This document shows positions 4,058-61,000 of a DNA stretch of 64,000 bases, piece after piece (positions within the stretch are counted from its first letter, which is position 1; each line of letters begins with the position of its first letter). The stretch is from Panopea generosa. Taxonomy: Eukaryota > Mollusca > Bivalvia > Adapedonta > Hiatellidae. The notes beneath the pieces are model-generated. The model had not been told where the DNA came from, searched no databases, and was given only the letters and a program-made list of their open reading frames with translations. The stretch spans positions 30,259,745-30,323,744 of the forward strand of contig CM055898.1 of assembly GCA_029582155.1 (NCBI GenBank), written 5' to 3'. Both the position numbers and the translations under genes were made by a program.

Positions 4058-7000
4058 GTAAGAAAGGAAAAAAAATGAAATATTGAAATTATTTATTGAC
4101 AATTGTGTTTCTCGTCTGCTGTCATTTTTTTTAAATAACAATTATAATATATTAACTTTTCGGGTAGTTTAACCCTTTACTCCATAGATACGCGTTTTCC
4201 CACATCAATCACAGAATGCCTTTGAAAACAGTGCAGGAAGAGTTCAGATTGCTCGTGAACACTTCCTGCACTGTTTTCCACTCTGTCAGTTAATATAAAC
4301 ATAATTCATCCATTGCTGATATGTGAAGAATTAATGCTTTCAATATTAAAGGTGTCCAAAGGCGTCAATATGAAGTAAAGGGTTAAGACACTGTGTGAAG
4401 GTCACTTACCAGTACCATTTGCTGCTAAGGTCATGGATTTAAGTGTTCTACTCAGATTTATTCTGAGATCTTCCTCCATCAATAAAACTGAGTGAAGATC
4501 ACTTACCTTTCACTACTGGGGTCGCGGGTATAAGGTCCTACTCAGTTCATAAACTTTATATGAGAAAATTTACCAGTTACTTATGGACGGAGGGTAGCTT
4601 AACTCAAGATTCATTCTAAGGTCTTCCCCATCTAGTAAAACTGGATATGCCATATAAGGCCATTATAAATTAATTGCTAATTATCATCCAAATTTTTCTT
4701 AAAAACGGGGAGTGCGGGAGGATTTTATTTTTTTAATTTTTTGTTGTTTTTTTTTATAATTTTTTATATATATTTTTTTTTTATGAAAATAAAAAGGGTC
4801 GGAGTGGCATGAAAATCAGGGGGCAGGCGGGGATGATAATCTAGCAATTAATTTATTATGGCCTTACCCCGGTAAAGTGCTGAAAATAGTGAAGTATATT
4901 ACAGTTTATCATAACATCTGTGACAGTGTGTCTTAGATGCTAAATGTCACAAAGCTGTGAATTATTAGTTTTCTGTAGCTCATGTTTGGCATCTTTTGTG
5001 TCTTATTTTCTATTGAAGTTGGTTATTTGTCGTTATTTATTGTATGAATGGGATGGCAGCAGATGGTTTGTGGCTGTTTGATTTTTATTAACATATATAA
5101 AATATTGATAATATTTTAGTGTTTGCATTCCTCATTATCATGTACTCATGACGAAATGATTAAAGTATTCTCTTTTATATCCCGCCATGCCTTGGCCATG
5201 TTTTTGTTTTAAGCTATTCCTATTTTACATTGATTGTTAAACAAATTCTTATAACTTACGCCAAATCATGCTCGTAATCTTCCCGGGTAGAACCTGGAGT
5301 ACTAAGTACACGTGAATAAAGTGTCTTGCTCAAGGACCCTGTAACACATAGCCATGGTGGAGGATCAATCCCAAGACCCCTTGACCCGATGATCTTCCAC
5401 TTCTTAGTACTTAGCTTAGTACTAGCTTAGTACTGGTTCTACCAACAAATTATGCAAATATATAAGTTTAAAGTTAAACTAAGTTACTTAAATACATTGA
5501 ACTACTTAGCTACTTATATACTGTATCACTTAACATAGAATATTAAGCAAGGTTCTGTCTCATATATAAATAATTCTTTAAATAGAAGTTTATTTTAGAA
5601 TTTAAATCTTTGAAAACTTGCGAATGTGTACAGGCCATATTGCTATAAATTGAAAGTTAGATACATGTATTCATATCAAGAAAGAGTATGGTTTTATTTA
5701 TTTTATGTATCTCTGCATAATTATATTCAACTGACTAGTATAATGCTATAAATAAAAATTATATATGCTAAATTCACTGATTTTGTTATGTGATTAATAT
5801 TACATGGCTTTGTGATCCTACTTTAACCCTTTACTTCATATAGACGTCTTTGGACACCTCTAATATAGATGCATTTGGACACCCGATATAGAAGGCTTTT
5901 GAATTATTGGGAGAATTATGTTTATATTAACTGTCAGAGTGGAAAACAGTGCAGGAAGTGTTCAGATTGCTCGTTACGAGCAATCTGAACTCTTCCTGCA
6001 CTGTTTTCAAAAGCCTTCTGTGATTGGTGCGGGAAAACGTGTATCTATGGAGTAAAGGGTTAAAATGAAATAATTATCAATGATTGCAAAAGGTGATGGT
6101 AAAACATAAATATACATGTGTGTAATTGCAGCGTCCAAGATGACTATCAACAGATGAAAATGCAGGAAAAACTACAAAATGAGGTTTGTTTTATTTGTTT
6201 CCTCCAATCTTGGGTTAAAAAATCCTTTGTACACATACCCTTGCATGAACTTTCAATATACTGTATATAATAGTGGGGCAGTGGATAGTGTGTTGGCCTC
6301 TCACATCACAGATAGAGTTTTCAATCCCAGACTCAACCCTTCTAAAATTACTTGGTACTGGTTCTATCCTGGAAACAGACTCTAGAGCGATTCATGTCAT
6401 CTCTATGCTATCTACACAACTGAGCTTAAAATAAACAGAAGGAAAATATTAAAATTGGAGAATCCTCCGTGGCCGAGTGGTCTCAGGCGCCATCTCAAGA
6501 TCACTTACCTTTCACTGCTAAGGTCATAGGTTTGAGTCCCGCTCGCCCCAAAAACTTTAAGTGAGAAAGTTTCCAGTAACTCACGGAAGGACAGTGGTTC
6601 TACTCAGTCTCCGGTAAAACTGGATAACCTGAAATGTGTTGAAAATGGCATTAAACCCCATTCAAAAAAAAAATTAAAAAAATAATTAAAATTGGTAGCA
6701 TCCGAGAAGAAAACCAGTCATCTCTTTAATGTTGTAGTCAAACATTTTTGCCATTTTTGGAGTGTAGGGCAATATTGACTATTTGGACATGATCCCTCTG
6801 ATGGTTTTTACAGGCAGAAAAAATCAAATTAATAATGTATCAGGCATGAAATAGTTATAGCTGTTTATCCATGAATAGAACATAAATTTAATCCTCAAAC
6901 TTACTTTTCTAGTGAATTATTTATCCATTTTCTCAACTTCAGGCAGTGTTATCTATTTTTTTACACTTCAAATATTACAAAATAAGTGGACTAGAGTATG

Positions 7001-10000
7001 AAACAATGACTAAGTCTAACATTCAACTGAATTACTCTATGAACTGTGAGTATGTACACCATACTTAGTTGATTTGTTTGAATGTTAAGTGGCTTTATTA
7101 TGCAGTTAATGGCTTACAATCGGTTAACCTAACCACTACTTCCTGAGATGGTTAACGAGTACTCGAGCACACCCATTGCCATGAGTAACTGATAAGTTTC
7201 TCACATGAATCAGCGATGAGAGACGAAGGACAATGAGACACAATGTCATATATTATTCATCACAGAGACTGTGGCCGGGTTGGGATTCAAACTCACAATC
7301 CCTGGAATGATATTCAGACACATTGCTGACTGAGCTTAGATCGGGTCAGGCTAGTAAAATGAATATCTGATGAAAAAATTGGACTTGTTACAGTCATCTC
7401 AAGGGACATGTACGTGTTTGGTCTGCTCATAAAATATTCAATGAAGTCAATGCTTCTACAGAGAAACAATTTCCTTATATAAAGATATGAGAGAAAAAAA
7501 GAAGAGAAGATTGGAATATAAAAACTATATTATATGCCATCTTCTGTGGCTTTGAGGTTAAGCGTGCACCTTGGAAACAGTAGGTCGAAGGTTTGAATCC
7601 TGCTGGAAGCACTTGATTTATTTCTGATGTGGCCGTTTGCTAACCCAGTAGTTAGTTTATTGAGGGGTACTTAACTACCTACAACATAAGGTTCTCTCAT
7701 AAGCCTGTTGTGGCTGGCCCTTTCAATAGATGTGTCACTATAATAATCAAACACAAAACTCATATTATACTACATTGTATATATAAATTTTGATGACGAA
7801 AGTGAGTAAATATGTATTTAAACTTGAAAGTCCTGAAAAACAATCTTATTGTTATCCGTAATATCCACTTCTTAATAATTTTTTTACGTGCCATGTTTAC
7901 AGCGCCGGCGTATAGAGGCGGAGAGAAAGAAGAAGCGCCAACAATCCACAATGATTCTTCCCAACACAGATGGCAGGCCTTCGTCTGGCCATCGTAAAGG
8001 TAAAGAGGAATCGCGTCCGATACTGAAGAATGACGCATCATCCAAACCATCAACGCCCAACAGTTTTGGTAAGTAAAGAGATCCAAGTTACTGATCTTTC
8101 ATCAAATCATTAAAGAAGTCACTGACCAAAATAATTAGTAATCTTACTGTAGATAATAAGTGATTTATGAAATTAAAATAAAAGTTTTTTTTATTAATTA
8201 CAATTTCTCGAGACTTAGGTATAAAAATATTAAATTCAATTGTTTTAGCTGTACTGGCAAGGATAATCAATCAGGCTAAAGTGGCGGTAATTTGTCTGTC
8301 AGTCTGAATACTTCATATCCAACAAAAGCCTTTTTTTACTGGATTTTTATAAAGCTTTGTTTATAATATATATATACCATTAAACCTCTCGACAAATTTG
8401 AAAACCAGTCCATTTCAAGCACCACAAGCTCAGTCATATGCCGTTAAAATTGTTAATAAAATATCTCTTTCTTTGTGTTTATAATCATAAAGCAGTTAAA
8501 ATTTTGATTATATTCTTACTAAACCTTGGATGTATTGTATACAATCAGCTAAAAATCTCTAGTCATTTTTTACTGGTAGGCACTTCCCTTGAATCATTGG
8601 CAATGCCACGTTTTCATTTGTCGTTTCCCTCGTAAGAATTACTTATTTAAAGATAGCCTCACAGTGTCTTATGATTATTGGCCGTGACTTTTGTTCCACA
8701 GCCATGATACTCACACCTGAATATATTATGTGGAACAGAAATACTTTTGAGAAAAGGCTAGAAAAAAAAACTATTAAAAAATAAATCTGTTATTATGCTT
8801 TTTCTCTTTTCTATTGTCATGCACCTGTAGATAGCAATTTCTTCTATTTATTTTTTTTTTTTACTGGATTTAATGCCATTTTCAACACATTTCAGGTTAT
8901 ATAATATGGAACATTCAGTTTTACTGGTGGAGAAAGACCTCAAAATAAATCTGAGTAGAATCACCGTCCTTCCGCAAATAACTGGCCAACTTTCTCGCCT
9001 AAAGTTTATGGACTGAACACATACCTACGTCCTCAGTGGTGAGAAATAAGTGATCTTGAGATGGCGCCATAGACCACTCATCCCTGAAGAGCCCCTCATA
9101 GCCCTTTACTCCATAGATATGCGTTTTCCCGCACCAATCAAGAAGGCCTTGGAAAACAGTGCAGGAAAAGTTCAGATTGCTTGTTTTCCACTCTGTCAGT
9201 TAATATAATAATTCACCCTATAATTCAAAAGCCTTCTACATAAGGTGACCAAAGCCTTCTTTATTAGAGGTGTCCAAAGTCGTCAATATCAGAGGCATCC
9301 AAAGGCGTCTTTATGAAGTAAAGGGATAGATAGCAAATGTGTTATAACTGCTTTTTATTGATGTTTTGTAATGGATTTTATTTAAATTACAAACTTGTGT
9401 TATTTATGTAAGCTTATTTTGTGCCTTTAGATTCTCTGCTTAAGGATAAAAATATACACATGGTTTATCATGGTAGTACAGGTAGTCAAGAGTTGTGTTT
9501 ATTGGGCCAAATCACGTTTATTGTTTGTGCAAGGGCTGTTGAAAAAGAAATGTCACTTTTCTTTTATTACATGTCTATGAATGTGACATTGCAATGTCTT
9601 ATCTAGATTTTATGAAAGCTTGTGTGCGCATTCATGCAAATCTCACAAAACCATTTTAGTTCTCTTTATCTTTATTCATCTCTTGAATACAAATCAAATT
9701 TAATGCTGAAATGAAATACTTAACAAAATGAGACCATTCCCAGAAACCTGTGTCTAAAGGGAGGATATCAGGGACAAATGCTAAAAAATGCCTTAAAAAG
9801 TAGCAGGATTGTTAAAATGGACATAAAGCATAAACAATATTTGAATGGTGACAAAATAGATATTTAAATTAGAGTGGTAAACTTGAAACGAAACCCCCAT
9901 TCTGAAAAATAGACTGCACTTAAATACTGCTTGATGACTTTCACATCATCATTCAGACTTTTCCTAAGATGGAACACTCCTTGTTAACCGGTATAACGGA

Positions 10001-13000
10001 TCAAATTGAAATCAAAATGAAATCACATGACTCATTTGATACGTGACAGTGTATGTCGCGGAAAATCTATTTTAGTCTAACCTAGACATGTAGCCAAAGT
10101 TGGGCAATCCCTTTTCAATATATTGTTTTGGCATGTTTAAAAAGGTAACCTTTTGGCAATGCGGGTCAGTGAGTATATATAGGTATGATATAGTGGAACA
10201 TTTAGAAAAATTCTGATAAATTCCCTTTAAAACTATTGAGGTTTCTTTAGTGACATTACTTATTGAACAACCATTGCACTTTTTATCAAACAACCTTCTT
10301 GCATTAGTGTTATTGAAGAACACTTTTGTATTACTGTTATTGAAAAACCCTCTTGTATTAGTGTTATTGAACAACCCTGTTGTATTTCAAAATATGTTTA
10401 CACAATGGCATATACAGTAAAACCTGTATTAAGCAGCCACATTTGCTATTTCCCATTTCAATGCTTTCAGAGCAAATAAACCTGTATTAAGCAACAACCT
10501 GTCTTTTGCACCTTCCCCTGACTGGCTGCTTAAGACAGGTTTGACTGTAAATTGTTATATTTCATAGTTGTGTTTTAAATTCTTTGTATATCTGTTTCAA
10601 AGGTACTCATTAGTTTAAAGGCATGTGCATGATTTTGGACATGATTTTGTTTACTTTGAATTCTGCTGTCATGTTCACAAGAGGCACATATACCATGAAT
10701 GTTTCCTGAGATACACTGTAGAGTTAATACAGTACCTAATATTTTGATGGTTAATTTAATAGGTTTGTGTCTAACATATCAATATATTGCATTGCATGAG
10801 CAGTAAGTCTTTTAAGCATTTCTGCTTAAAGTTATGTTTAATTGTTTTTTGAATGCATCAGTTTCTCTGATTTAATTAATTAAACTTTAATAAAATTAAT
10901 TTTTTAAAAAGTTATGCTGAATACATTACAATTAATGATTGTAAGATTTATGAATATTAAGTGCCTGACAATTAAAAGATATAGCTAAAAAGCATTTTTT
11001 GTAGAGTGTCTTTAAAGCTTGATTTTTCAGACTTTGTTTATCACAATGGTGACAGTTTGACATTCAGTCAAACTATATACTCCACAGTACTGGTTTAGAT
11101 GCTTGGTCCAGCTGTTATGCATGCTTGTGTATTCACACAAAATCTTGTGAAATTTCATTTAAAAATATTCTAACTTTCTAGTCATCTAAGAAATACAAAT
11201 TACAAAATGAGACCATTCCCAGCAAATTGTGTTTACAATTGTTGAAAACTTATGATTACAAAATGTGTATACTGCAATGTAAAAATCAAGGGAAGTACTT
11301 GAAAGTCTACTCCAAACTGCAATATTTTAATTTCAAGATCATTTTGCATGTTTTAAACATTATAAAACATCTAAGGTGACATATGCTTTACATTTTATGT
11401 AAAAGAAATGAGTTGCCTGTGAAATTTGAATGATTAATTTGCCAAACTATTAATTCTTCGCATGCTATTTCCAAAACATATAATTCGATAAATTCGATAT
11501 CAATCTTTTTTTAAAACGGTAAATAGAAACTTTTACTTTTGAAAATATGCAGTCCGATATAATGTGGAATTCGTTATAACGCATTTTTTCTGTGGCTACC
11601 AAATTTAAAATTGATATTTTGAATCAGATTTATTAAAAACTTGCGGCATAATAATTGATCGAAAGGCTCAACTAAATCGCTAAGTGTGTGGGCTCATTAT
11701 GTTGTTCAAACTGTAATCATGTATTTTGCATCAATTACACTTTGATAATCCTGACTGAAATGATAACAACTTGATATTGTTATAAACAACATCGCTTTTT
11801 ATTGATTTACACCGACAAACAATGGTCTGTTATATTCATCACACATTGTCATGTGTTTGTTTACAATACTACAACCGGATATAGTATTGCCAAAATAGTG
11901 AAGCGCAGTTCACCTTTGGATATTGATGACGCAGTTTTGCTTATAAAGCGTTTTCATTCGGTGGATCCCGGCAACCACCTCAGTGCAGTTTTACAGAAAA
12001 AAACTATTTTAAACGGGCAAAATCAATGCAAAGGTGTTGGCACAACAGCAAAGATTTAGAAAATTGGCAATTAGATAGGCATAAAATAATAGTTATGAGT
12101 TAGTTGTGAGTGTACTGGATATATTTGTTTATTTCGTTGCCTTTGGAGATTGCGTAACATTTCAACAAAATTAGAAACAAATATGGGGCTAATGTATATA
12201 CAGAATGCGCTTAACTGTATTGTAGGGTTGAAAAACCTTCTGTCTTAGATTATTTTATGGTATTTGTTTTTCTTTTAATCATTTTCTATAGGTTTTGTAC
12301 TGATATTATTGTTACATCCTGACATTTGTATCATACAGAGTAAATGTTTTTTGAGGATTGTTGAGGATTTTTATGAATTAATCAATTAAAAACATTATTG
12401 CCCTTCTTTTAGAATATCTGGGACCTGCCAGCTATGATAGTGATGGTCGTATTTTGGATGGGCCAAACACGAAGATCAAGATCAATGATGCCACTGTGTC
12501 GAGTTGCAGTGACGGAACAGACAGTGATGACATTCCAACAATAGAAACTGAAGGTGTGTAATGAAACCATGGCAACACATAGATATTTATAATCCTGTAT
12601 TACATGATAAGTTACGATGCCACTGAATGTAACCTATTTTAAGTTATACACATGTATATGTGCTGTTCACAACTAAAGAACACTTGTGACTTTTGACCTT
12701 TTAACAAAAAAAAAAGAAAGAAAAAAGAAATGGCCATGCTTTCCATGGGTTGCATCTTGTCAAGTCTTGTCAGAATCTATCAAAAGAGAATCTGAGTTAT
12801 TTAACAGAAACCAGTTACTGTTTTTAGAAACATTGACTTGACCTTTAAACAAAAACTTAACAATGTTAATATTTCTTACTTTGAGCTGCAACTGGTAAAT
12901 TTCATAGGAGTCCGAGATCCAGACAATATTTTCAAGCTGTCAAGCAAAATTGGAAATAGGTTTTTTCTTTGGCACATCCTTATATCTGCCTGGATTTAAA

Positions 13001-16000
13001 TGGGTGTTGTTGTGGCCTATACCTTTAACCTGTTATGTGATTGACCAGAACAGTCACATGGCTGCCATCTGGTTGCCATGTGATGGCCTGGATAATAGAA
13101 TGCATGGACTGTGACAGTTTTTTCCCTCAGATTTTGGAATTGGTGTTCATTTGTTTGACCTTAAAACAAAATGTTGGAATTCAAGTTCCTTCTCACTATT
13201 TGGACACAACTTTATAACACTTATTGAAAAATGACAAAACAAGTCTGGCTGATCAATCATTATTTTTGCCAAGCTTTTCTTTGATGTGTCTATGTCTATC
13301 ATTGGTTTAAGAAAGTACTCAACAAAGTGGTATTGACCCTTGGTATTGACCCTTGGTATTGACCCATGGTTTCAAGAGATGTCTCCCTGATGATAAATAG
13401 GAGATTCTTGTGTAGATTTTTGTGATTAAATTTTGGAAAGAATTCCAATAGATTCAATTCATTGCCCATTTGCCAAAATCAGCAGAAGTTGTTTACACAA
13501 CAAATGGGTCACTGTGTCCCACTGCTTGGCTCCCTGGACCAAATATAACTAAAGGTGATATGTACTATGATCATTTGACCAAACATTTTCTTGTGGAACT
13601 CGTCTGTACATTTATGGTCCAGCTTAAAAGGGTGCATATCCTTTTTGATAAGTTTCCATTTAAAATGCATTTTCTGAAAATGTCTTGTCTGCATGATGCA
13701 GATATGAAATAAGAATACCTCGATGTAAGTCCAGTTTCTATTAATTTCTTTTTTAGTCATTTGCATAACTCTTATAAATGGTTGAAAGATGTCATATTTT
13801 GCTTATTTATGATCATATATAACAAAGAATTTAAAACTTTTATTTCATCAGTTTTTATTTTATTTGTTGTTTTTTTGTTGGGGACATAGCTTTCAAAATT
13901 ACATGCAATTAAATTGTTTTAATTAAATTAGAAAGCATTTAGTAAGTGGTTTCAAACCATGAAGTAGTATATAAAAGAAGCCATCTTGTTTTCAATAACT
14001 GCTATGATGGTGAGTCCTTTATACAAAGGGAGATAAATCTGTAATCATTATACTTACATTGTTCTTGTCCGGATAGAGTTACCTCCTCTAGTTAAATATA
14101 ATTTGTTACTATCACAAGTGCTGTAACGGGTTGGTTGCATGCATGGAATGTATATTATGTGTTGTTCTATATCATGTACATGTATGCTAGTACTAGGCAA
14201 TGATTTGTTATAAATATGAAAGAATTTCAAATATATTTATTATAAAAGTGTTTGTCAACTAAGAGGTTTGCCATTCTGTTCTGTTTTTGTATATAAAAAA
14301 AAAAAATTAATAATTGCTTACATTTAACAGTTTATTATAAGTTCGGATTCCATGGTTGTATGATATAATTACAGGATTTTAATTTTTGGACATTTTAAGG
14401 TTGTTTAATTAATAAAGCAACCAATTTTATTGGTTAACTTACTTGGTGCACATGGAATCTCAACTTAATGTTATTTGTCAAACACATGGAATCTCAACTT
14501 AATGTTGTATATCATACACATGGAATCTCAACATAACATATGGAATCTTAAGTTAAAATGCTTTTACATAAATGGAATCTGAACATAATTATCTAGTACT
14601 GGCATACTTTTTTATAAGTCGTAAAGTATTGTAAAACGTGTAACTGGAACCTTTAATACTTTGGTGCAGGGATGACTCCACAAAAGCAAAAATCCAAAAA
14701 CAAAAAGGGACAAAAAAGCAATAACCCTGGAAACACATGGGTTCACTGCCCAGAGCGTAATTTTGAGATGGGCTCTGGGCTGATGAATCAAGATCCCGGT
14801 AGTAATGATATCGTGGATTCGGGTTTAGGCTCAGAGTTGAAACAGGGTTCGGGGCCAGAACCCGAGATGCCATCATTAAAAGGTATTGTATAGTGTAGAC
14901 GGTGGAGGCTTACAATATATATACAGCATAACCACATTGTGCAATATTAAATCAATTTTAGCTTTCAGCATACAATCATTACAGGTTCACTCTTAACTAT
15001 AAATTGATTATCTCAGCTTTTGGCAATCAAAAGCAGAGTGCAAATATTGCTTTTATTATGATATCAGTCACAGTTGTCATGTCAACATTAGTGAAAATTT
15101 TGTAATCTCAACAACTGCTTGTCATATGTGATCACATTTGGTGAACTATAGTATATGAATGGCCACATGTGAAATTTGTGACACTTCAAGGTTTTGGTGA
15201 GACATTGAATTTAATTCACACTGAAACACTATACTTGCGTGTGAATTTTAAAGGATTCATTTTTTCATTTTACCAATTACAACTATTTGCAGGTATTCAA
15301 ATAAACATGCTTGGTGGAGTTTCAGATAAAAAAATTTAGTGCCAGAGGGTGGGGGTGGGACAGTTAGCTTAGTCGGTAGAATGTCTGTCTTTCAACCCAG
15401 GGGTTGTGAGGCAGAATCCCCATCCGGCCACATTCTCCGTGATGAATGATATGTATTAAGACATGTGTCAGATTGGTCTCTCATTGATGATTCAACTGGG
15501 AAAATTATCAGTTACTTGCAAAGATGGGTGTGCTGGAGTACTGGTTAAAATGGGTATCCAAGTAAACAGTGGTTAGGTTAACTGATTGTCTATTAGCCAT
15601 CAATTGCATAAAAAATATGCTAAATTTTCAAACAAACCAATTAACTTTTCTAAGTAGATATTTAAAGACTTAAAACTTAACTGTTGGAGTATTTGAAAAA
15701 TAAATCTAGCGTGGACCAAATTTCACTAAAATTGACTAAGTAAATACCTAAAACTTTTAAAACAATTGTCTGTGTCATTTGAGTGCTACCAAATTTGGAA
15801 ATAATATGAGAAGTTATTGCTTCACATTGTTTTTGTATGGTGAACCTGTAATGATAGATTTTTAGCTTTTTGAATAACAAAGTCGCTTTCCTACTTTGTA
15901 ACAGAGTTGTAGATGAGTTCTTCTATGACATACCATACAAGACAAAAACAATGTAAATCTACATCAAATATAACTTCTAGAATAGAGCTAACTTCTGAAT

Positions 16001-49000: not shown

Positions 49001-52000
49001 ACTATGCAAAAATGTTTGATCATGCAAAAATGTTTGATAGAACTATGTTAGTAAAAAAGTGCTAGCAGTAAACCAAAACCGTATTCCTGTGTTTCTGGTG
49101 AATTTCTTTGTTCTTTTTTCAGATGGCAGCTTAATCATTGTTATATTTGCTGTAAATAAAGAGCACAAAAAATGACCACAACTTGCACGCATTATTAAAA
49201 CTTGCTTGAACACCATGGTATAACACTGATTCTATTTTTTTATGAATACATATGTATATATATTATATTGTTATTGTAAAAGTAAATCACATGCAATAAA
49301 TCAACAGATCTTTATCACATTTGGTAGTGTTCTTTAAAGACACCTTGCTATAGTTTTTTCCTATTGATAGAATTTTATGAAACTTCCCACTATTTAAGTT
49401 TAATGTATGTTCATGCAATATCAGAAATAAAAAACACATGTTACTGTACAGATTTGTTGGTATTACCTCCTCATAAACATACCTGTCCTTGAAAGTTGGC
49501 GAAATAATGTAGATTTAACAAGCAATGTCAAAAAATATTTAAATTTGTTTACATCTAGTATTTTATTAAAAAAAATTACATCATATATGCATGTGATACT
49601 AATTTTCATGGAAGTGGTAATTATAAGCTTGAATTTAACTGTTTGGGGTTTTTAAAAACAAAATCATTTCAGCAGAGTGTCAAAGCGGGTTTTTTTTTTA
49701 ATATTTTGATATTGTGTATGAATAAATTTTGCTTGAAACCACACACAATACTCTCTGATACCTATTCTAATGACAATCAAAATAAAAAATACACTTTACC
49801 ACATAATTTGAGAAAAAAAAATTGCCATCATTAAATAATCTGCAGTTGCAAAATTAATGATTTTATACTAATTGAGCATGTTTGTATAAATATTAAGATT
49901 TCTATTATATTTCATATTCCGATTAAATTGCTATAAACAATTATTTTATACCAGTATGCATATTTCATATATTGAACACAATATAAGAGACCAATTTTAG
50001 GTGTAACTGTAAATAATTGTGCCATCCAAAATATGATCAGTAGTAGTATAGCGGTATGTAGTGACTCTGGCATGTCTCAGCAAAATTGCTTCCGTTTGTG
50101 TGCAGAGTTGGTGCACATGAAAAACTAAAGCATTCATCCTTAAAACAGAGAATTATGTCAGTCTATTTTTAGATGGAACCTACCATGTTAGGGGTGTTTT
50201 ATAGGAGATAGCAGATTTATCTAGTTACTGTATACATAATAAGTGCACAACTTACACATGTCCTAAATTTATACAAAACTACAAAACACCCCTAATATGG
50301 TAGGTTAACATCTAAAAATAGAATGACATGGTTTCATTATAGTGTCTTGGATTTATACTGGTATGCAATTAGAAACAGAATCTGTATTCTCAATGGAGAT
50401 CTACCAATTGTATCACACAGTATGACCATGTTAGTAACAGGTAAAAAGAGTAAACCAAAATTGATGGAATAATTGTGATTTTGTACTGCAGTGAACTACC
50501 TATCAGTGATGATTTGACCATTTCAGGCACTTATTTATAACATAGGGTGAGCGCAAATGTAACAGGAGTCATCCATAACATATATTTACCAGAAGAATTC
50601 TTAATTTCAGGGGATGAACCTGTTCCCAAAGCCCGCACAAAAAAGTCAAAGGAGAAAAAGAAGCGGGCTCCAGCCTCATCTCCCAAAGCCCGTACTAATG
50701 ATAATGAGGAAGAGGATGTTGATGATGCAAGCATGCCCGTGGGACCACAGCCTGGCAGTAGGACACCCAGCAGCAAAAACCTGCAGGCCATGCAGCATAG
50801 CAATAACGTAAGTTAATGTAATACTCACCCCATTTGAGGTCCTCCATAGCTGAGTGGTCTAAGACGCTGTCTCAAGATCACATGCCTCTTACCACTAATG
50901 TCATAGGTTCGTGTCCCGCTTACACCAAAACCTTTATGTGAGAAAGTTTGCCATTAACTTGCCGAAGGAAAGTGGTTTCTTTTCAGATTCATTCTGAGGT
51001 CTTCTTCCACCAATAAAACTGGATATGCCATAATTATACAACCTGAAATATGTTCAAAATGGCGTTTAACTCCTTTCAAAAAAAAAAAATTCACCCCATT
51101 TGTTATGCGTCTGACGCAATCCAGGGTGGTGAGTTTGGATCCCCTCCCTGCCCACAGTCACTGTAGAACTACAGCCATAAATCTCCCACCTCCTAATATG
51201 TGGGGAAGTAGTGGGTGCACAGACTGCTGTTATAAACAACTGAAATATTGTTGAAAAAAGTGGGGTTATCCCAATCAGGACCATAGATTTAAAACTATCT
51301 CTATCTTACCTTGATGGCTCAAATCTTATAACAAAGCTTGAAGGTCTCACTACACAGTTATGCCCCTTGACTTGCCTGGGTAACATGATTATTGCAGTTA
51401 AAAAAAGTCTGATTTAATTTGGTTTGAAATATTTTCGAAATGGTTCATAGGGGCTGTAATTTCTTGCTACAGATGAATAAAGCAAAAATTATGGATACAT
51501 GGGGATGCAGATGTGGATAGGGAGCAATAAGAACATCATGTACGCCATTTAATTATTTTTTCGGTCGAAAAAAAATTGTGGTTGCTATTTCAATAAAATT
51601 AATAAAATTATAAATACAACATGCATCCTGCAAAAACTCAGAAAATATTCAAGCTGAGTGTATGAAACTTGCTATGTGGATAGAGGGTGACAAATTGTGG
51701 TTGCTATGGCAACAAAATTGATTGTTATAACCTAGATCTTGCAAGAACTCAGAAAGTATTTAAGTCTCAGTCAATTTAATCAATTTTGTTGCAATACCAA
51801 CCACATTTTTCTCATGGCACTGCAAATCTTATGTCACCATTTACACAAACCAGTCTTCAAAAACACTAACTACATGTACGTTAACAAAGTCCTACCTGTA
51901 AACACAGTAGGGGACTTTAGTATTGCTTGCAATACTCCACTGTCTGGGTTTTTTTTCTTCAAAGTATTACAGCAATTGCTTATTTTAATTTTAGGTGAAT

Positions 52001-55000
52001 GAGGATATGGATGATGATGATGCAAAAGGGGCTACAGGCAGGGCCTATAGTCCTGAAATGACAGAGAATTTGGATGAGTTTGTCTTAAAACCAGCCCCCC
52101 AAGGGGTCACGATAAAGTGCCGGATCACTAGAGATAAAAAAGGGGTGGACAGGGGCATTTACCCGACATATTTCTTACATTTGGAACGCGACGATGGCAA
52201 AAAGGTGAGGATACCCAATATACAATTTTACAGCATCTATCATAATTTTTTTACCCTACTGGACTTATAAAGTATATGCAAAATGCTTCAGTTTAAGTAC
52301 ATGTGTTTGTTTTGTTTTAAAAAAAGGCTTCTTTTTCATTTTTTTCCTAATTAAAAAGTTATATAGTTTTGTTCTACTAAAATTGTCTGATGTCCATTAT
52401 TCATACTGCTCATACAGTGTACTATCAATTTTTTTTAAAAACTTTATTAATTTTGACAATCCATATTATCTACTGTCAATTAGTTCCACACCCCATATTA
52501 TCTACTGTCCATTATTTCTACACCCAATATTATCTATTGTCCATTATTTCCACACACCGTTTTATCTATTGTCCATTATTTCCACGACCCTGTATTATCT
52601 ATTGTCCATTATTTCCACACCCCATATTATCTACTGTCTGTAATACACATACTATCCATTTTTTTCCATTTACTTGTCTGGTACCCTTGTTGATTGTTTT
52701 ACAGCGGTTTTTATTAGCTGGAAGAAAAAGAAAAAAGAGCACTACATCCAATTATTTGGTGTCTCTTGACCCCACAGATATGTCTCGCAGAGGAGAAAGT
52801 TATTTCGGGAAGATAAGGTACAAGTTCAGCATTGACTGCCTTCTTGTTTTGTTATAAACTTGTTACTGTTAATATGGCAGTTTTGTAACATTTCAAATGT
52901 TATGTTATTTTGTTATGAACTTTCAGACATTTTTATTAGCTGGTAGAAAACGAAAGAAATCCAAAACTTCAAATTACCTTTTATCTACGGACCCTACAGA
53001 TCTCACAAGAGGAGGTGAAGCGTTTGTTGGAAAGTTGAGGTAAACTATAGATTTTGCTTCAAAACTGTAAATAGTTCAAATGTGTCCTCAATAGGGCATT
53101 TGAGGCCATCTATGAAAAAAAAATGTAATATACTTCTGCATTATGTTAGTTTTCATTATTGGGTGTTCATTTCTAAATATAAAGTTTAAATATACTTGGA
53201 GATTAAGAATAAGTAAATACCATCCATGATGCCTTTTTCAGAGCAAGTAAATAATTAAAAACCTGCATGTAATTAATTTTTGGTTCTAATGTAAAAACTT
53301 CAGAAAAAGGCAAGCAAGCCTCAAAGAACTTGTAGATTATATTAACAGATAATTAAATTAAAAATAAAAAACAACCACAATTCCAATATGCTGATTGTAA
53401 AATAAGTCTGGTTTTCTCATTTGGTATTTATGGTGATGAAAACTTAAAGAAATTCTTATGTTTTTCCACTTCTTTATCTTGGCTTTTATAATGTAGGTCG
53501 AACCTTCTTGGCACGCAGTTTACTTTGTATGACAATGGAGAGAATCCCAAACAGGGAATGGACAAAGCAAGACAAGAGTTGATAGGAGTAGTTTATGTGA
53601 GTTTTTAATCGTTAGCGCTTTTTCTTTGGAATTTTTAATTCAGTGTTAGAGTTTATGTAAACTTTTAGTTTATCATAAAGGGTCTGCATTGGCCAAGTTG
53701 TCTAAGTTGCCATTTCAAGATCATTTACCTTTCGTCAGATTCATTATGAGGTCAGAGAGTTCATCCACCAATAAAGCATGATGTGCCACATATAACCCGA
53801 AAATGGCATTAAACCCGATTCAAAAAAATTATCATAAAGTTATGAATTTAGAGGGACATCTGTGGTCTAATACATTGTCTCAGAATCACTAACCTTCCAC
53901 CACTGAGGTTACAAGTTCGAACCCATATACACCTTTATTGTAAAAAGTTTGCCAGTCACAAATAGTTCTATTCGCGATTCAATCTGATGTCTACTACCAT
54001 TAACTGACCTGACACAACTGTGACTGCTGCTCCATCCATGTGGCCACTTGGTATTGTTTGTCCAAGTAAATACAATGTGATACGGTATAGTGTTCACTTA
54101 GAGACCGTTAGCTTGTCTAAGGCAAATGGCATTCCTGGAAAAAATAAAGATCAATGATTGGATTATCCAGTTGTTTGATTGACAGCCCACATCAGATCAA
54201 CAAAACTGGCTTCCATAATGATATAACCTGTATTGTATTGAAAGTAGCTTCAATCCCACCACCCTTAAAGAAAGCAGACGTTGAAAAAGATTCTGTGTAA
54301 AAGTTAGTGTTCATTAAGTAAATATTTAACAATTAAGAAACCCAAAGGGAGCGACCAGGGTTTCTTAATTTTAATTTTTTTTATCTAATGAACACGAACT
54401 GGTTTAAACATCATTTGACTGACTGATTGACGTCATTTGACTGACTCTGGGTGGGAGCTATGATAAAAGCTAAGAAGATTGACGTTAGAAAGTTGACGTT
54501 TGCTAAGGCCGTATCTAAGCATAGCTCGCGCTGCTTTGTAGTTTGTAGATGACTTGTTCAGAATTGAACCAAGGACGGAGTCTGTAAAATTATTAACGCC
54601 CGCGCAGTGACGACAAACTTCTTAATAATTAAGAATTAACTTAATAATTAAGTTATTTTGTGGGCTGTTTTAACAAATAAGAGCGACACAATTTTGAAAA
54701 TTGAAGCAATTCCATTGGTTGTCAAATGAGGTTCAACACTAAAGGTTTGAGGTAGTAGGTTCAAGCCAAGTTAAAAGATATTATGCGATGCCATATGTAC
54801 ATGAAGAGACTGTGGCTCTACCTTAATACATTCTGAAGTTGTCTTCCTCTACCATTAAATGACACTAAACCCAGTTCCGAGCAGATTTACAGTGGTAGAC
54901 TATAATTATATGGGTATTGATCTATTTTCATGTATCAGGTATGGTAAATTACCGCTCAATTGACAGTTAACTAACAGCTGCTTGATAAGGTGATAATTGT

Positions 55001-58000
55001 TTTATCAACAATGGACACCACCATAAATGTAGTAGATCCATAACAGTTACTGTTATGTCATACATCAGGGACAGAGTGAGGATTTTAGTTTTGAGGGGGC
55101 TGACTTAGGGGGTGCAACACAAAATCTAAAAGGGCAGACATTAATGGATTTTGATAATATATGGGAGTTGGTGGTGGGGGTGTGGGGGAGTGTTTTTTTC
55201 TTAAATGGAAGATCTCACATGTGGAAGGTCATGGCTTTGATCCCTGGCCAGACTTGAAAAAATGGTCCTAAAAGCTTCCTTGCTTTAGAGTTCTGTTCAG
55301 CCTGGTGTCACTATAATGTGACTGGATGGGTATCATACCATGTGTCTGCGGCATAATAGTCTAGTGTGGCAGTGCTTAGAATACTGTCTCAAGTAGGCAC
55401 TGTCATTATGCGAATGAAATACTTGTTGAGAGTGATGCTAAACTCCATACAACAATAACAAAAAATGGAAGATCTGAGATTTTTCTTTGCCTTTAAAATT
55501 AATTCCCTTGTAGAAATGATCAGTGTTAAACCAAAGTCAAATGAAGTCAATATTGTTCTGTGAAAGTCGTTCATTGATGAAAAACAAATTTGTTTAGATT
55601 TTTTATGTGTAAATATAATACATAGAGGATCTTACATTCATGCTCATTTATTATTAAATTGATTAAACAAGTTGGAAAAAATATATTATCTGAAGCTCTG
55701 CCGGGCATAATATCATTTTTACCAACAAGTTTAATAATTTAAATAATAAGTGAGCATGAATGTAAGATTCTTTTAATCACAAAACTCAGAAAATTAGTAC
55801 ATTTACCATATACTTAACATATCATGTATGTCTAAAAAGTTTGTAACATCTCATAATAACATCACTGTTCAAGGACAAATCAACTCATTTATATATTCGG
55901 GGAAGACGACACGTTGTTCCGCATGTTACATACAAGAGCAAAGTTATGCGAAAACACTGAACGATGAATAGGAAGTCATATTATACTAAGTTGATACAAA
56001 ATATTTAATCATGGGTTTATTTACACTCCTGCACCATAAATTATGTGATTCATTTTTTATTTTCAACAGGAAACTAATGTACTTGGATTTAAAGGACCAA
56101 GAAAGATGTCGATAATAATTCCTGGTATGAACCTGGACCATGAACGAGTAGATATAAAACCAAGAGGGGTACGATGCAATTTCATATTTCAGTCATAGTA
56201 CAAAAATGTCATACCAATAATCATTTTGTTGAGAAATTTAATATTTTGTCAGTATATTATCTCCTTTGAGAAGATTATAAAAAATGTTGATTGATTGACT
56301 ATTTAACAAAATTTTTATGCAGTCAAGGGCTAACAGATGATCAGTTAACCTATCTTTCTGGAATCCTTGGAGTTGAACCAGTACTCGAGCACACCTGTCT
56401 ACGCAAGTAACTGCTAACATTCCCACTTGAATAAGCGTTGAGAGACGAATGACAACGAAACGCAATGTATTTCTCATCGCAGAGACCGGCCTGACAGGGA
56501 TTCATATTCATGACCCCTGGATTGATAGTCAGACATGCTTTCGACTAAGCTGACCAGGCCCGGCTAGATAAAGTACTCAACTTAGAGTGAGTTTCAAACA
56601 AATTTCTTTTCAGTTCAGTTTGAGCAAATGGCTCAATGCTGTTTTGTAATAGAGGTGGAGCAGAAGGCCATTGGATACATGGTCTCTCCTCAGATTTCCT
56701 CTCACACTGACATTTTTTCTACTTGCTCCGATAGACTGGTTACTATACCTGCCTGTCAATTCTTAGAACCCTGTAGGTTGTCACATTCATGATTTTTCAA
56801 ACATGATCCTTTAAGCCTTTTTTTTTATTTATTTTTCATTTTTTATTTCAAAATTACCATATTACAGAATAACGATATAATTTTTATATTGGTTTATACA
56901 AAAAGTACATTGTAAAAGAAAAAATATATAACATTATGCAATATTACAACATATAGTAAAGTTGTGTTTTGTATTGATTGGTTGAAGGCTCACTTTGCAT
57001 TTAGATTTTGATTTATACATACATACACATTTAAATAGGTTTTTAAAAAAGAACACCTGAATCCGTGATCATCATTTTATTTGTAAATCTATATAGATTA
57101 TTTATGTATTTGAAACAACAATAGTTATTTGATCCATGTATGTAATCATCGCAATTCTTCGAACAACCAGTACTGAGCGTATTGGTGTACATTCTAGTAT
57201 TTTTTTTCTTCACATTATTCTCTCAATTACAACACAGTACGTCATTAAGTATAATGTTAGATATTTTGGTAGGTAATGTTGTATTTTGATATTATTTGAT
57301 ACGAAATTTATAATTTCAAATATTTGTACATAATTCTTTTTAATAACAAAAATAAAAGGTTTTAGTCCTTATTGCGATCATGCTTTAAACATTGGAGCAA
57401 TGGCACTGGTGGGGATGGAATTTACTTGTGTACGTACATTCATTGTAAAAATATGTGTACATATAAACATGTACATATACATACATTCACATTTTATATG
57501 AATATACATGTAAACACGCATATATATCTTACAAATCCATTAATAAACCTAAGTAATTCTCACTATATGTGCAAGTTGCTGTAAAAGGTTATCATACTAA
57601 ACGTGTCGCTACACAGTTATGCCCCATGGTAACATGATTCTTACGCTTAATTAAAAGGCCTATGTAATTTGGTTTTGAAATATTTTCAAAATGGTTCATA
57701 GTAGTTTAGATGAGTAAGGGAAAAGTTGGCATAGCTTACACTGCAATAAGACATCACTGGTGTTGAAAAAGTGACTTTTATAGGATTTCAACATATGCAT
57801 GTATTTATGAGCATTTGAGGACTTCTTTTTTCAAAAAGTCTCAGGTTGTCGCTGCACATTCTATTAAAAAAACAAGCTGGTCAACCTACCAGTTATTGTG
57901 CATTTTTATGTGGGTATACATTTCTGCTATGAAAAAAAAATACTTGGAATTTGGAATTCTTTTTTTACCATGGAATCCTAGACCTTATTTTCTATAGAAC

Positions 58001-61000
58001 AAAGAACACAATTCAACTGTGTAGTGAGACCTTAAGCTGGGCAGAGATATTAAACTGTCTATTATGTGTCCGGAAAGAGGCATACATAAAATGTTTCATC
58101 CAAATTCTCTATACAAAAATCTAAAGAACTCATCAAAAACAAAATGATCAGACTCTTGCAAGCTTTCCCTGAGAACAGGCATAAAACAGGTGATTCTTAG
58201 TAATGTAAGATAACATGTGATTTGTAATAAATAAACTAACATTGCAGGACCATGACAGTTTGATTGAGAGATGGAAGAGAAAGAACATGGAGAATATTCT
58301 AGAATTACACAACAAAAGTCCCGTCTGGAATGATGGTTAGTATAAATGTGTCTGCCTTAGGTTTCTATGCTAATCTAAGATTTGCCACAGTCGACTTTAT
58401 CAGGTTTTAATTGTTATTAGGTCTGCAATAAAGAAAGGTAATTTGCCTTTCACCGTTAAGATGATTCTATCAGTTTACCACATTCATTACTCACTTAGGT
58501 GATTATGCTATCTGGGGTGGCACCAATACTGTATGTTAAATAATTATGGAATGAATTGAATTACATGTAAGAAATGCACATGGTGCCACCAGAAGTCTGT
58601 CAGCCCAAGAATGGAAATGTCGTGGAGACCATAATATTATACAGTCAGACCTGTGTCAAGGGCCACCTCTATTAAGTAACCACTTGTGTTAAGCAGCCAC
58701 GTTTTGTACTTCCCTTTTCTATGCCTTCAGAGCAAATTAACCTCTATTCAGCAACAATCTGTCATAAAAGGCCACTTTTGCTCCTTTCTTTGACTGGCGG
58801 CTTCAGACAGGTTTGACTGTATGTAATCTTTATAAGCCTCCAATTTTGAAGAGTTACAAACAAAAAATGACACACATATGTTAACATATAGATATACAAT
58901 ACAATTAAACACAGAAAGGAAGTAAATTGAACTCGAGCATAGTCATGGGAGCAGGTAATATGCAAGTGCACAAACAGTGCACCCCAACAAAAATAATCAT
59001 GGGAGCAGGTATGCAAGTGCATAAACAGTGCACCCCAACAAACATAATCATGGGAGCAGGTAATATGCAAGTGCATAAACAGTGCACCCCAACAAACATA
59101 ATCATGGGAGCAGGTAATATGCAAGTGCATAAACAGTGCACCCCAACAAACATAATCATGGGAGCAAGTATGCAAGTGCATAAACAGTGCACCCCAACAA
59201 ACATAATCATGGGAGCAGGTAATATGCAAGTGCATAAACAGTGCACCCCAACAAACATAATCATGGGAGCAAGTATGCAAGTGCATAAACAGTGCACCCC
59301 AACAAACATAATCATGGGAGCAGGTAATATGCAAGTGCATAAACAGTGCACCCCAACAAACATAATCATGGGAGCAGACATGCAACTGCATAAACAGTGC
59401 ACCACAACAAACATAATCATGGGAGCAGACATGCAAGTGCATAAACAGTGCACCACAACAAACATAATCATGGGAGCAGGTAATATGCAAGTGCATAAAC
59501 AGTGCACCCCAACAAACATAATCAAGGGAGCAGGTATGCAAGTGCATAAACAGTGCACTCCAACAAACATAATCAAGGGAGCAGGTATGCAAGTGCATAA
59601 ACAGTGCACTCCAACAAACATAATCATGGGAGCAGGTATGCAAGTGCATAAACAGTGCACCACAACAAACATAATCATGGGAGCAGGTATGCAAGTGCAT
59701 AAACAGTGCACCACAACAAACATAATCATGGGAGCAGGTAATATGCAAGTGCATAAACAACAAAGTCTTACATTCTTGAGCAATCCAAATTTGCCCAGTT
59801 ACATGTTTTGTTTCACATTGATTATAAATGTAAAATGATCATACATGTATTTAAACTACAGGTGGATGACCTGCAATATCAGTTGCAAGCTTTTCAACAT
59901 GTGGGAAAGAGCAGTAAAACAAAGTCTTCATTCATATTCTTAATGACTTTTATTATTTACAGAAACCCAGTCGTATGTTTTGAATTTTCATGGTAGAGTG
60001 ACACAGGCGTCAGTGAAGAATTTCCAAATTGTCCATGACAATGATAGTAAGTAGTGATTCTTTTACCAGTCGTAAAACAGTAGGGTAGATGGTATACAAG
60101 AGAAATTAGTACCCATTTGTTAACTATCTAAGATCTGTTTTGGTATTTTAAAAATGTCTGTCAAAAAAGAGCAGGGGTATATTATAGAGAAAAAATTTGA
60201 CAAGTTATTCTTTCATTTCATTGTCTTTCCAGTTTGTACTTTGTTTTAACAATGTTTTAAATTTTATGAAATAAAATGTTTAGACTAAATGGAACATTAG
60301 AAAAGACATGTTAAACTGTCAAAGTAAATGGCACAGGAGCTAACACATCACACAATACATAAATGCGTGTTTTGGAGATACAGTAAAACTCCTCTAATAA
60401 GACTTCCTTTGGGACCAGGCAAAAGTGGTCTTTATAGCGGGGTGGTCTTATTATCGAATTTCATTGGCAAAAGTTAAAGGCCTATGTTATTGTAATAGTA
60501 GATTGATGTATACTATATTCTGCATGTGCGAGCATATATTGTTATATCAATGCTAATAATAATAATGTAATAATTATAATAAATAAATCTGTTTGTTTTA
60601 ATTATGGAATTGTTGCTGTTATTACTTTAATTATTATTATTATTACCATCATCATTATTTTATAGGTATGCACATGTAATAATAACAAAGGGATAATTAA
60701 AATAAATATATTGTATGGTTTATATTTTATTTACATACATATAACATAATAACAAGTACAGGCGGTACATTTAAAGCAACACATCCACGTTTAAACTTTT
60801 TTAAAAAGTTTTTCAATTGAGTTGTGAGCACATTTCCCATACATAAATATATGGTCAGTGAGCTGTATATGTGCTAACAAACACTATCCAGAACGCTTTA
60901 GAATTATAAAAAAAGATGTCCAAATTATAAAGCGTGACAAACGCTTTATAAATTATTTTTAAATTGCCGAGGATTCCAACTTGGCTTCAAATTGAATTAT

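Follow-up and report, generated by a model that had tools for sequence, protein, structure and literature searches.

The 64,000 nt stretch of Panopea generosa DNA analysed here (the window) carries a TUB/TULP3-type tubby gene in which two adjacent exons, 8A and 8B, very probably constitute a mutually exclusive pair in this heterodont clam, hypothesised to tune phosphoinositide or cargo binding. From the sequence we infer that the two exons are used exclusively, and the pair is most likely ancient in the heterodont clams, as judged by comparison with related bivalve proteins. The clam can probably make two tubby forms which read the same membrane signal in different ways.

Anatomy of the exon pair and of the gene that carries it

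On the + strand of the window, the tubby gene extends between approximately 7.9 kb, or possibly 6.1 kb, and 62.3 kb (Table 1). Its exons were recovered in order by seven bivalve tubby proteins (tblastn against the window, E ≤ 0.01), and exons 6 to 13 are separated by GT-AG introns and maintain a continuous frame. The segment encoded by exon 8 was found exactly twice by each of the seven proteins, once in 8A and once in 8B. The first-pass annotation of this DNA had proposed that two adjacent 113 nt segments, each with its own acceptor and donor, enter and leave in the same phases, encode the same part of the tubby domain with 27/38 identical residues and are parted by a spacer of 109 nt; all of this was reproduced, with the exon and spacer boundaries recovered exactly (Table 1) and flanked by GT-AG sites.

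Table 1. Exons of the tubby gene and features around exons 8A and 8B, in positions of the window
Feature	Position	Strand	Evidence
Possible N-terminal coding exon	6103..6183, ends approximate	+	tblastn, 1/7 bivalve proteins, E 0.003
N-terminal coding exon	7900..8067, ends approximate	+	tblastn, 7/7 bivalve proteins
N-terminal coding exon	12409..12552, ends approximate	+	tblastn, 7/7 bivalve proteins
Cassette-homologous exon	14684..14884, ends approximate	+	tblastn, 6/7 bivalve proteins; isoform pairs of relatives
Exon 6	50611..50807	+	splice sites, frame, tblastn
Exon 7, phase 0 end, start of tubby domain	51995..52204	+	frame, Pfam, tblastn
Tandem array, 5.5 x 32 nt, intron 7	52461..52638	+	repeat search
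Exon 8A, 113 nt, divergent version	52705..52817	+	splice sites, frame, simulations, residue counts
Spacer intron 8A-8B, 109 nt	52818..52926	+	splice/branch-point inspection
Exon 8B, 113 nt, canonical version	52927..53039	+	splice sites, frame, simulations, residue counts
Exon 9, completes split codon	53497..53596	+	splice sites, frame
Exon 10	56070..56168	+	splice sites, frame
Exon 11	58248..58335	+	splice sites, frame
Exon 12	59963..60046	+	splice sites, frame
Exon 13, coding part, ends TAA 62282-62284	62151..62284	+	frame

The acceptors read ...TTTTACAG/CGG in 8A and ...ACTTTCAG/ACA in 8B, while the respective donors are AAG/GTACAA and GAG/GTAAAC. The phase at entry is 0 for both exons, and each ends with the first two bases of a codon, whose third is the first base of exon 9. 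At the nucleotide level 74/113 positions are identical, and the 39 differences are distributed over first, second and third codon positions as 13, 6 and 20, respectively. Constructs of 141 residues matched the Pfam Tub family (PF01167) about equally well with either version, scoring 107.3 bits with 8B and 108.5 bits with 8A (cut-off 27).

When exon 7 is joined to exons 9 to 13 through 8A, or through 8B, the frame remains open through the residues SKLACE and the terminal TAA. Inclusion of both exons results in a stop three codons beyond the codon that is split where 8A joins 8B, while skipping of both, with exon 7 joined to exon 9, results in a stop at codon 12 of exon 9. As either exon alone leaves the frame open and both or neither stops it early, single inclusion alone is productive; the claim that the use of both or neither shifts the frame is thus borne out by the stops computed for each wrong form. 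On the basis of the exon coordinates, these stops are situated about 100 nt and 64 nt, respectively, upstream of the next junction. A stop sufficiently upstream of a junction leads to nonsense-mediated decay (the 50-nt rule), by which both wrong products are predicted to be decay targets. The two exons have the features of tandemly duplicated, mutually exclusive exons, being adjacent and homologous, of equal length and phases, with splice sites of their own and a frame which permits the inclusion of one only.

Several further features were observed in and around this gene. Some isoforms of Mya, Mercenaria, Sinanodonta and one further relative include, and others lack, a cassette of 65-70 residues homologous to the exon at 14684-14884 (isoform pairs P0085/P0124, P0122/P0121, P0014/P0038 and P0127/P0126), and this exon probably represents a second alternative region of the same tubby gene. 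The 32 nt tandem array of intron 7 is located closely upstream of exon 8A. In intron 11 (58938-59759) a 51 nt unit is repeated in tandem 15.7 times, with both strands open for approximately 300 codons. Scans of the 64 kb window for tRNAs and Rfam families gave no match. A second, more diverged tubby-family gene is found on the same contig (C5:39.137-39.144 Mb; G000; L002, L004). Its match to the Mya tubby protein is confined to two C-terminal stretches (49-56 % identity) and, on this sequence comparison, it is taken as a distant family member; an exon 8 was not found at this locus.

Conservation, age and selection

The first-pass annotation had suggested a search for the pair in other molluscs, and a counterpart was found in Mya arenaria. 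Two tubby isoforms of this clam, P0124 (X7) and P0085 (X2), were among the 120 matches listed of 6045 in a full-length search, with source contigs of 83,634,289 nt each. These database isoform models are identical save for a 66-residue upstream cassette and eight substitutions, and all eight (8/8) of the latter fall inside exon 8. The 8A/8B pair, or its equivalent, would thus exist in a second clam, as far as the database models can be taken to represent its transcripts.

The relationship of the Mya versions to 8A and 8B is mixed. While X7 shares 34/38 residues with 8B and 26/38 with 8A, X2 shares 32/38 with 8B and 29/38 with 8A, and the greater proximity of X2 to 8B argues against simple orthology with 8A. 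The segment-terminal motif GKIR, which occurs in one of 314 segments (Mya X2) as well as in the 8A of the window, speaks for orthology. Similarly, the 8B state T321 and F327 is found in Mya X7, Mercenaria, Mactra, Dreissena and P0121, which speaks for orthology, but also in the limpet Lottia (33 rows compared), which speaks against a clean split. The S321 and Y327 of 8A and Mya X2 are uninformative on orthology, since they are widespread in outgroups. Raw identity to 8B, which for Dreissena, Mactra and Mercenaria amounts to 34, 35 and 36 of 38 residues, respectively, was dropped as a mark of the B type, with values as high in outgroups with a single type (Sinanodonta 34, Ostrea 34 and Solemya 36 of 38). 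Only one exon 8 type, 8B, was seen in Mercenaria, Mactra and Dreissena among representatives of 90 % identity clusters. Such clusters may hide isoforms (the Mercenaria representative P0127 stands for ten members), and the 8B type alone in these three is therefore not evidence of absence.

Two further sets of proteins differ in or near this segment. P0123 and P0128 have exon 8 changes at near-invariant positions, with N310T in one and K304G, in the second lipid site, in the other, and are otherwise ordinary tubby proteins; N310 of tubby is taken here to contact the lipid. The two possibly represent isoforms of the A type in other clams. Immediately ahead of exon 8, the sequence of P0126, P0127 and P0129 (Mercenaria and Mactra) is DAKRDVKR or DSKRDVKR, in place of the DGKK or DGKR of the other proteins, which looks like a short insertion where exons 7 and 8 meet.

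The question of one or of separate duplications was addressed with an exon 8 tree of 38 sites and 33 sequences, comprising 31 chosen fetched segments together with 8A and 8B. Forcing both within-species pairs together was rejected (AU p 0.003, KH 0.011, SH 0.036). With the Mya pair alone forced, values of 0.004 (AU) and 0.0515 (SH) were obtained, and with the window pair alone forced, a marginal 0.0499 (AU) and 0.43 (SH), while trees constrained to unite the A types, or the B types, were not rejected (AU 0.34 and 0.39). It is unlikely that the pairs of Mya and of the window species arose separately, as events of the same kind but of different origin. The proximity of Mya X2 to 8B would fit such an account, as would the free 38-site tree, in which the A-type exons stand apart and X2 joins Magallana rather than 8A, with many of its nodes weak. 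It is opposed by the constraint tests, most strongly by that on both pairs and less evenly by those on each pair alone, and by the GKIR motif common to 8A and Mya X2. The rejection of separate duplications by this small, 38-site test is suggestive.

A second tree was constructed from 478 columns of the proteins without exon 8, with an approximate N-terminus for the window protein. Here the window sequence joins Mya, Dreissena, Mercenaria and Mactra (support 51), followed by P0122 (89), P0123/P0128 (94), the unionids (100) and the oysters, mussel and scallop (94), and on the basis of this placement the window species is considered a heterodont clam. Orthology of the pair would place the duplication no later than the common ancestor of the window species and Mya.

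By the NG86 method, dS between 8A and 8B is 2.77, with silent sites near saturation, and dN is 0.27. Neutral evolution was simulated 20,000 times with 39 random changes per run; a stop arose in 80 % of the runs, in none (0/20,000) were 27 residues still identical (the maximum was 23), and at least 20 of the changes fell on third positions in 0.28 %. Judged by this pairwise test, which leaves constraint on 8A alone undated, both copies are old and have been under protein-level selection since they parted. Residue counts were made over 148 distinct family segments, derived from 314 of 331 proteins (the remaining 17 gave no pattern match and were excluded). Both exons carry the commonest family residue at each of the 27 positions they share, and at the 11 differing positions every 8B residue is present in at least 10/148 segments. 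The 8A residues R295, L315 and R323 (mouse numbering), in contrast to those of 8B, occur in 0/148 segments, while F328 occurs in 1/148, M320 and I331 in 2/148 each and V313 in 3/148; at position 320, where 8A has M, L is found in 146/148. By these counts 8A is the odd copy and 8B the canonical type.

The canonical character of 8B and the seven rare or unmatched residues of 8A could also be expected if 8A were a dying or silent copy and 8B alone were used, as in most tubby genes. Furthermore, an 8A-type protein was absent among the matches listed in three database searches. A 77-residue 8A query against short proteins returned no 8A-type fragment among the 120 matches listed of 173, with two of the 120 nearer to 8A than to 8B, one of them misplaced and the other of the ordinary type (28 versus 27), and no 8A-type protein was present among the 120 matches listed of 348 in a search with the 8A region. 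A silent 8A is nevertheless very unlikely: it has no stop, has kept both splice sites and carries the commonest residue at all 27 shared positions, neutral drift to such divergence brought a stop in most simulations and never reached 27/38 identity, and Mya has two versions according to the database models.

There is similarly little likelihood that the pair serves mainly as a dose switch, in which skipping or double inclusion yields a decay product and the difference between the proteins matters little. Both wrong products do stop early enough for decay under the 50-nt rule, but a single poison exon would suffice for this, and both the protein-level selection on two versions and the eight exon 8 differences of Mya would be left unexplained. 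That the pair is an assembly artefact, either an uncollapsed haplotype or a local mis-join, has a negligible probability, with no supporting point found, the copies differing at 39/113 nt with silent sites saturated, and no match longer than 23 nt between the sequence through the spacer and that from the spacer onward, once the similarity of the exons themselves and the match of the spacer to itself were set aside.

Lipid-binding sites and the proposed choice between exons

Exon 8 corresponds to residues 295-332 of mouse tubby, according to an alignment with the PDB chain in which the residue number equals the query position plus 224; this 265-residue tubby chain presumably ends at residue 505. 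The numbering agrees with the residues given in PMC10445746, where K330 and R332 are described as part of the canonical PI(4,5)P2 pocket (site 1) and the basic patch 301-305 (RKRKK) as a second PI(4,5)P2 site. Both published sites are located inside the 38 residues of exon 8, and both are identical in 8A and 8B. Around them, positions 326, 327, 328 and 331 differ between the two versions and 329 is the same, while charge is changed (8A/8B) at 295 (R/T), 307 (T/K) and 323 (R/G). As the named contacts are the same and their neighbours differ, an altered affinity or preference for membrane or cargo would be expected, rather than loss of binding, and it is hypothesised from the sequence that the exon swap tunes phosphoinositide or cargo binding. 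The tubby domain serves as a PI(4,5)P2 sensor in cell biology (PMC10445746). In TULP3, which takes up membrane cargo to be transported into cilia, this domain binds both PI(4,5)P2 and cargo, and the cargo is released in the PI(4,5)P2-poor cilia (PMC11346432); a tuned affinity would be relevant to this process.

With regard to how exclusivity might be enforced, a G at position +5 is present in six of the six other donors examined and absent from those of 8A and 8B, which have an A. The donors of the pair are thus weak, which suits regulated use. The best branch-point-like site of the spacer (TTAAT, with the A at 52872) is located 54 nt from the 8A donor, and a second consensus candidate, followed by AGs, 17 nt from it. 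Taking both as consensus candidates only, the former is just above the steric limit of approximately 50 nt between donor and branch point (PMC7969005). RNA pairing between introns showed no clear excess over shuffles of the one sequence (z 0.6, -1.4 and 0.3), with 76/100, 10/100 and 57/100 shuffles pairing as well or better for intron 7-spacer, spacer-intron 8 and intron 7-intron 8, respectively. The donor of 8A and intron 8 share an inverted match of 18 nt, which was judged to be of chance length. The sequence TTRTTTTGTTATRAACTT occurs exactly twice in the 109 nt spacer (52844-52861 and 52905-52922), the second copy ending 4 nt before 8B. With up to two mismatches it has four matches in the window against 0.68 expected, for a pattern that was itself drawn from the spacer copies, and it is a possible regulator site.

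The following mechanism is proposed for a mutually exclusive pair. A single 113 nt exon was duplicated in tandem and both copies have kept intact sites, as the sequence shows; a splicing regulator, acting on the weak donors, would choose one copy. The tight spacing would assist exclusion, as the likely branch point of the short spacer comes close to the steric limit, and nonsense-mediated decay would remove the wrong products. Since the exon carries both of the domain's PI(4,5)P2-binding sites, the swap may, with less certainty, shift the tightness of PI(4,5)P2 binding or the membrane or cargo setting without abolishing binding.

An extension of this proposal is put forward tentatively: an ancient splice switch of the heterodonts might provide an apparently single TUB/TULP3-type adaptor with two PI(4,5)P2-reading modules, such that exon choice, and not gene duplication, would set the pick-up and release of ciliary cargo. 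Vertebrates have several tubby genes, and if the proposal is true, it would suggest that clams do by splicing what vertebrates do by means of these. A pair that swaps 38 residues including both lipid sites, with the contacts kept, would also constitute a ready-made experiment on the neighbouring residues.

Comparison with known systems

The remark of the first-pass annotation that no such pair was known in tubby genes agrees with a literature search, the reach of which excluded most subscription journals and which returned no report of mutually exclusive exons in these genes among the papers listed; in PMC3778012, the phrase "mutually exclusive" is applied to localisation and not to exons. The TUB/TULP proteins of known structure (PDB 1i7e, 1c8z, 1s31 and 8fh3) have the same domain and the same PI(4,5)P2-binding residues and, unlike 8A/8B, no report of alternative exons inside their tubby domain was found by that search. 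In the case of OGDH exons 4a/4b, as presented in PMC7969005, a short intron likewise separates exclusive exons and a regulatory property is tuned. There the distance between donor and branch point in human is 25-41 nt and falls short of the limit of approximately 50 nt, whereas the tubby candidate is at 54 nt. The muscle myosin heavy chain, as described in PMC3912159, employs exclusive exons to adjust one region of a protein, as is proposed here, but does so with clusters of exons in a motor gene rather than with one pair in a lipid-binding adaptor.

Among bivalves, the closest precedent is exon 10 of the alternative oxidase of the oyster Crassostrea virginica. According to the account in PMC5589949, this is likewise a tandemly duplicated exon of which one or the other copy is used; conservation is seen in the second copy and novel changes around key functional sites in the first, as in 8B and 8A, respectively. 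It differs in being a terminal exon subject to 3' alternative splicing, in encoding part of a mitochondrial oxidase, and in that the expression of both versions was demonstrated there by experiment.
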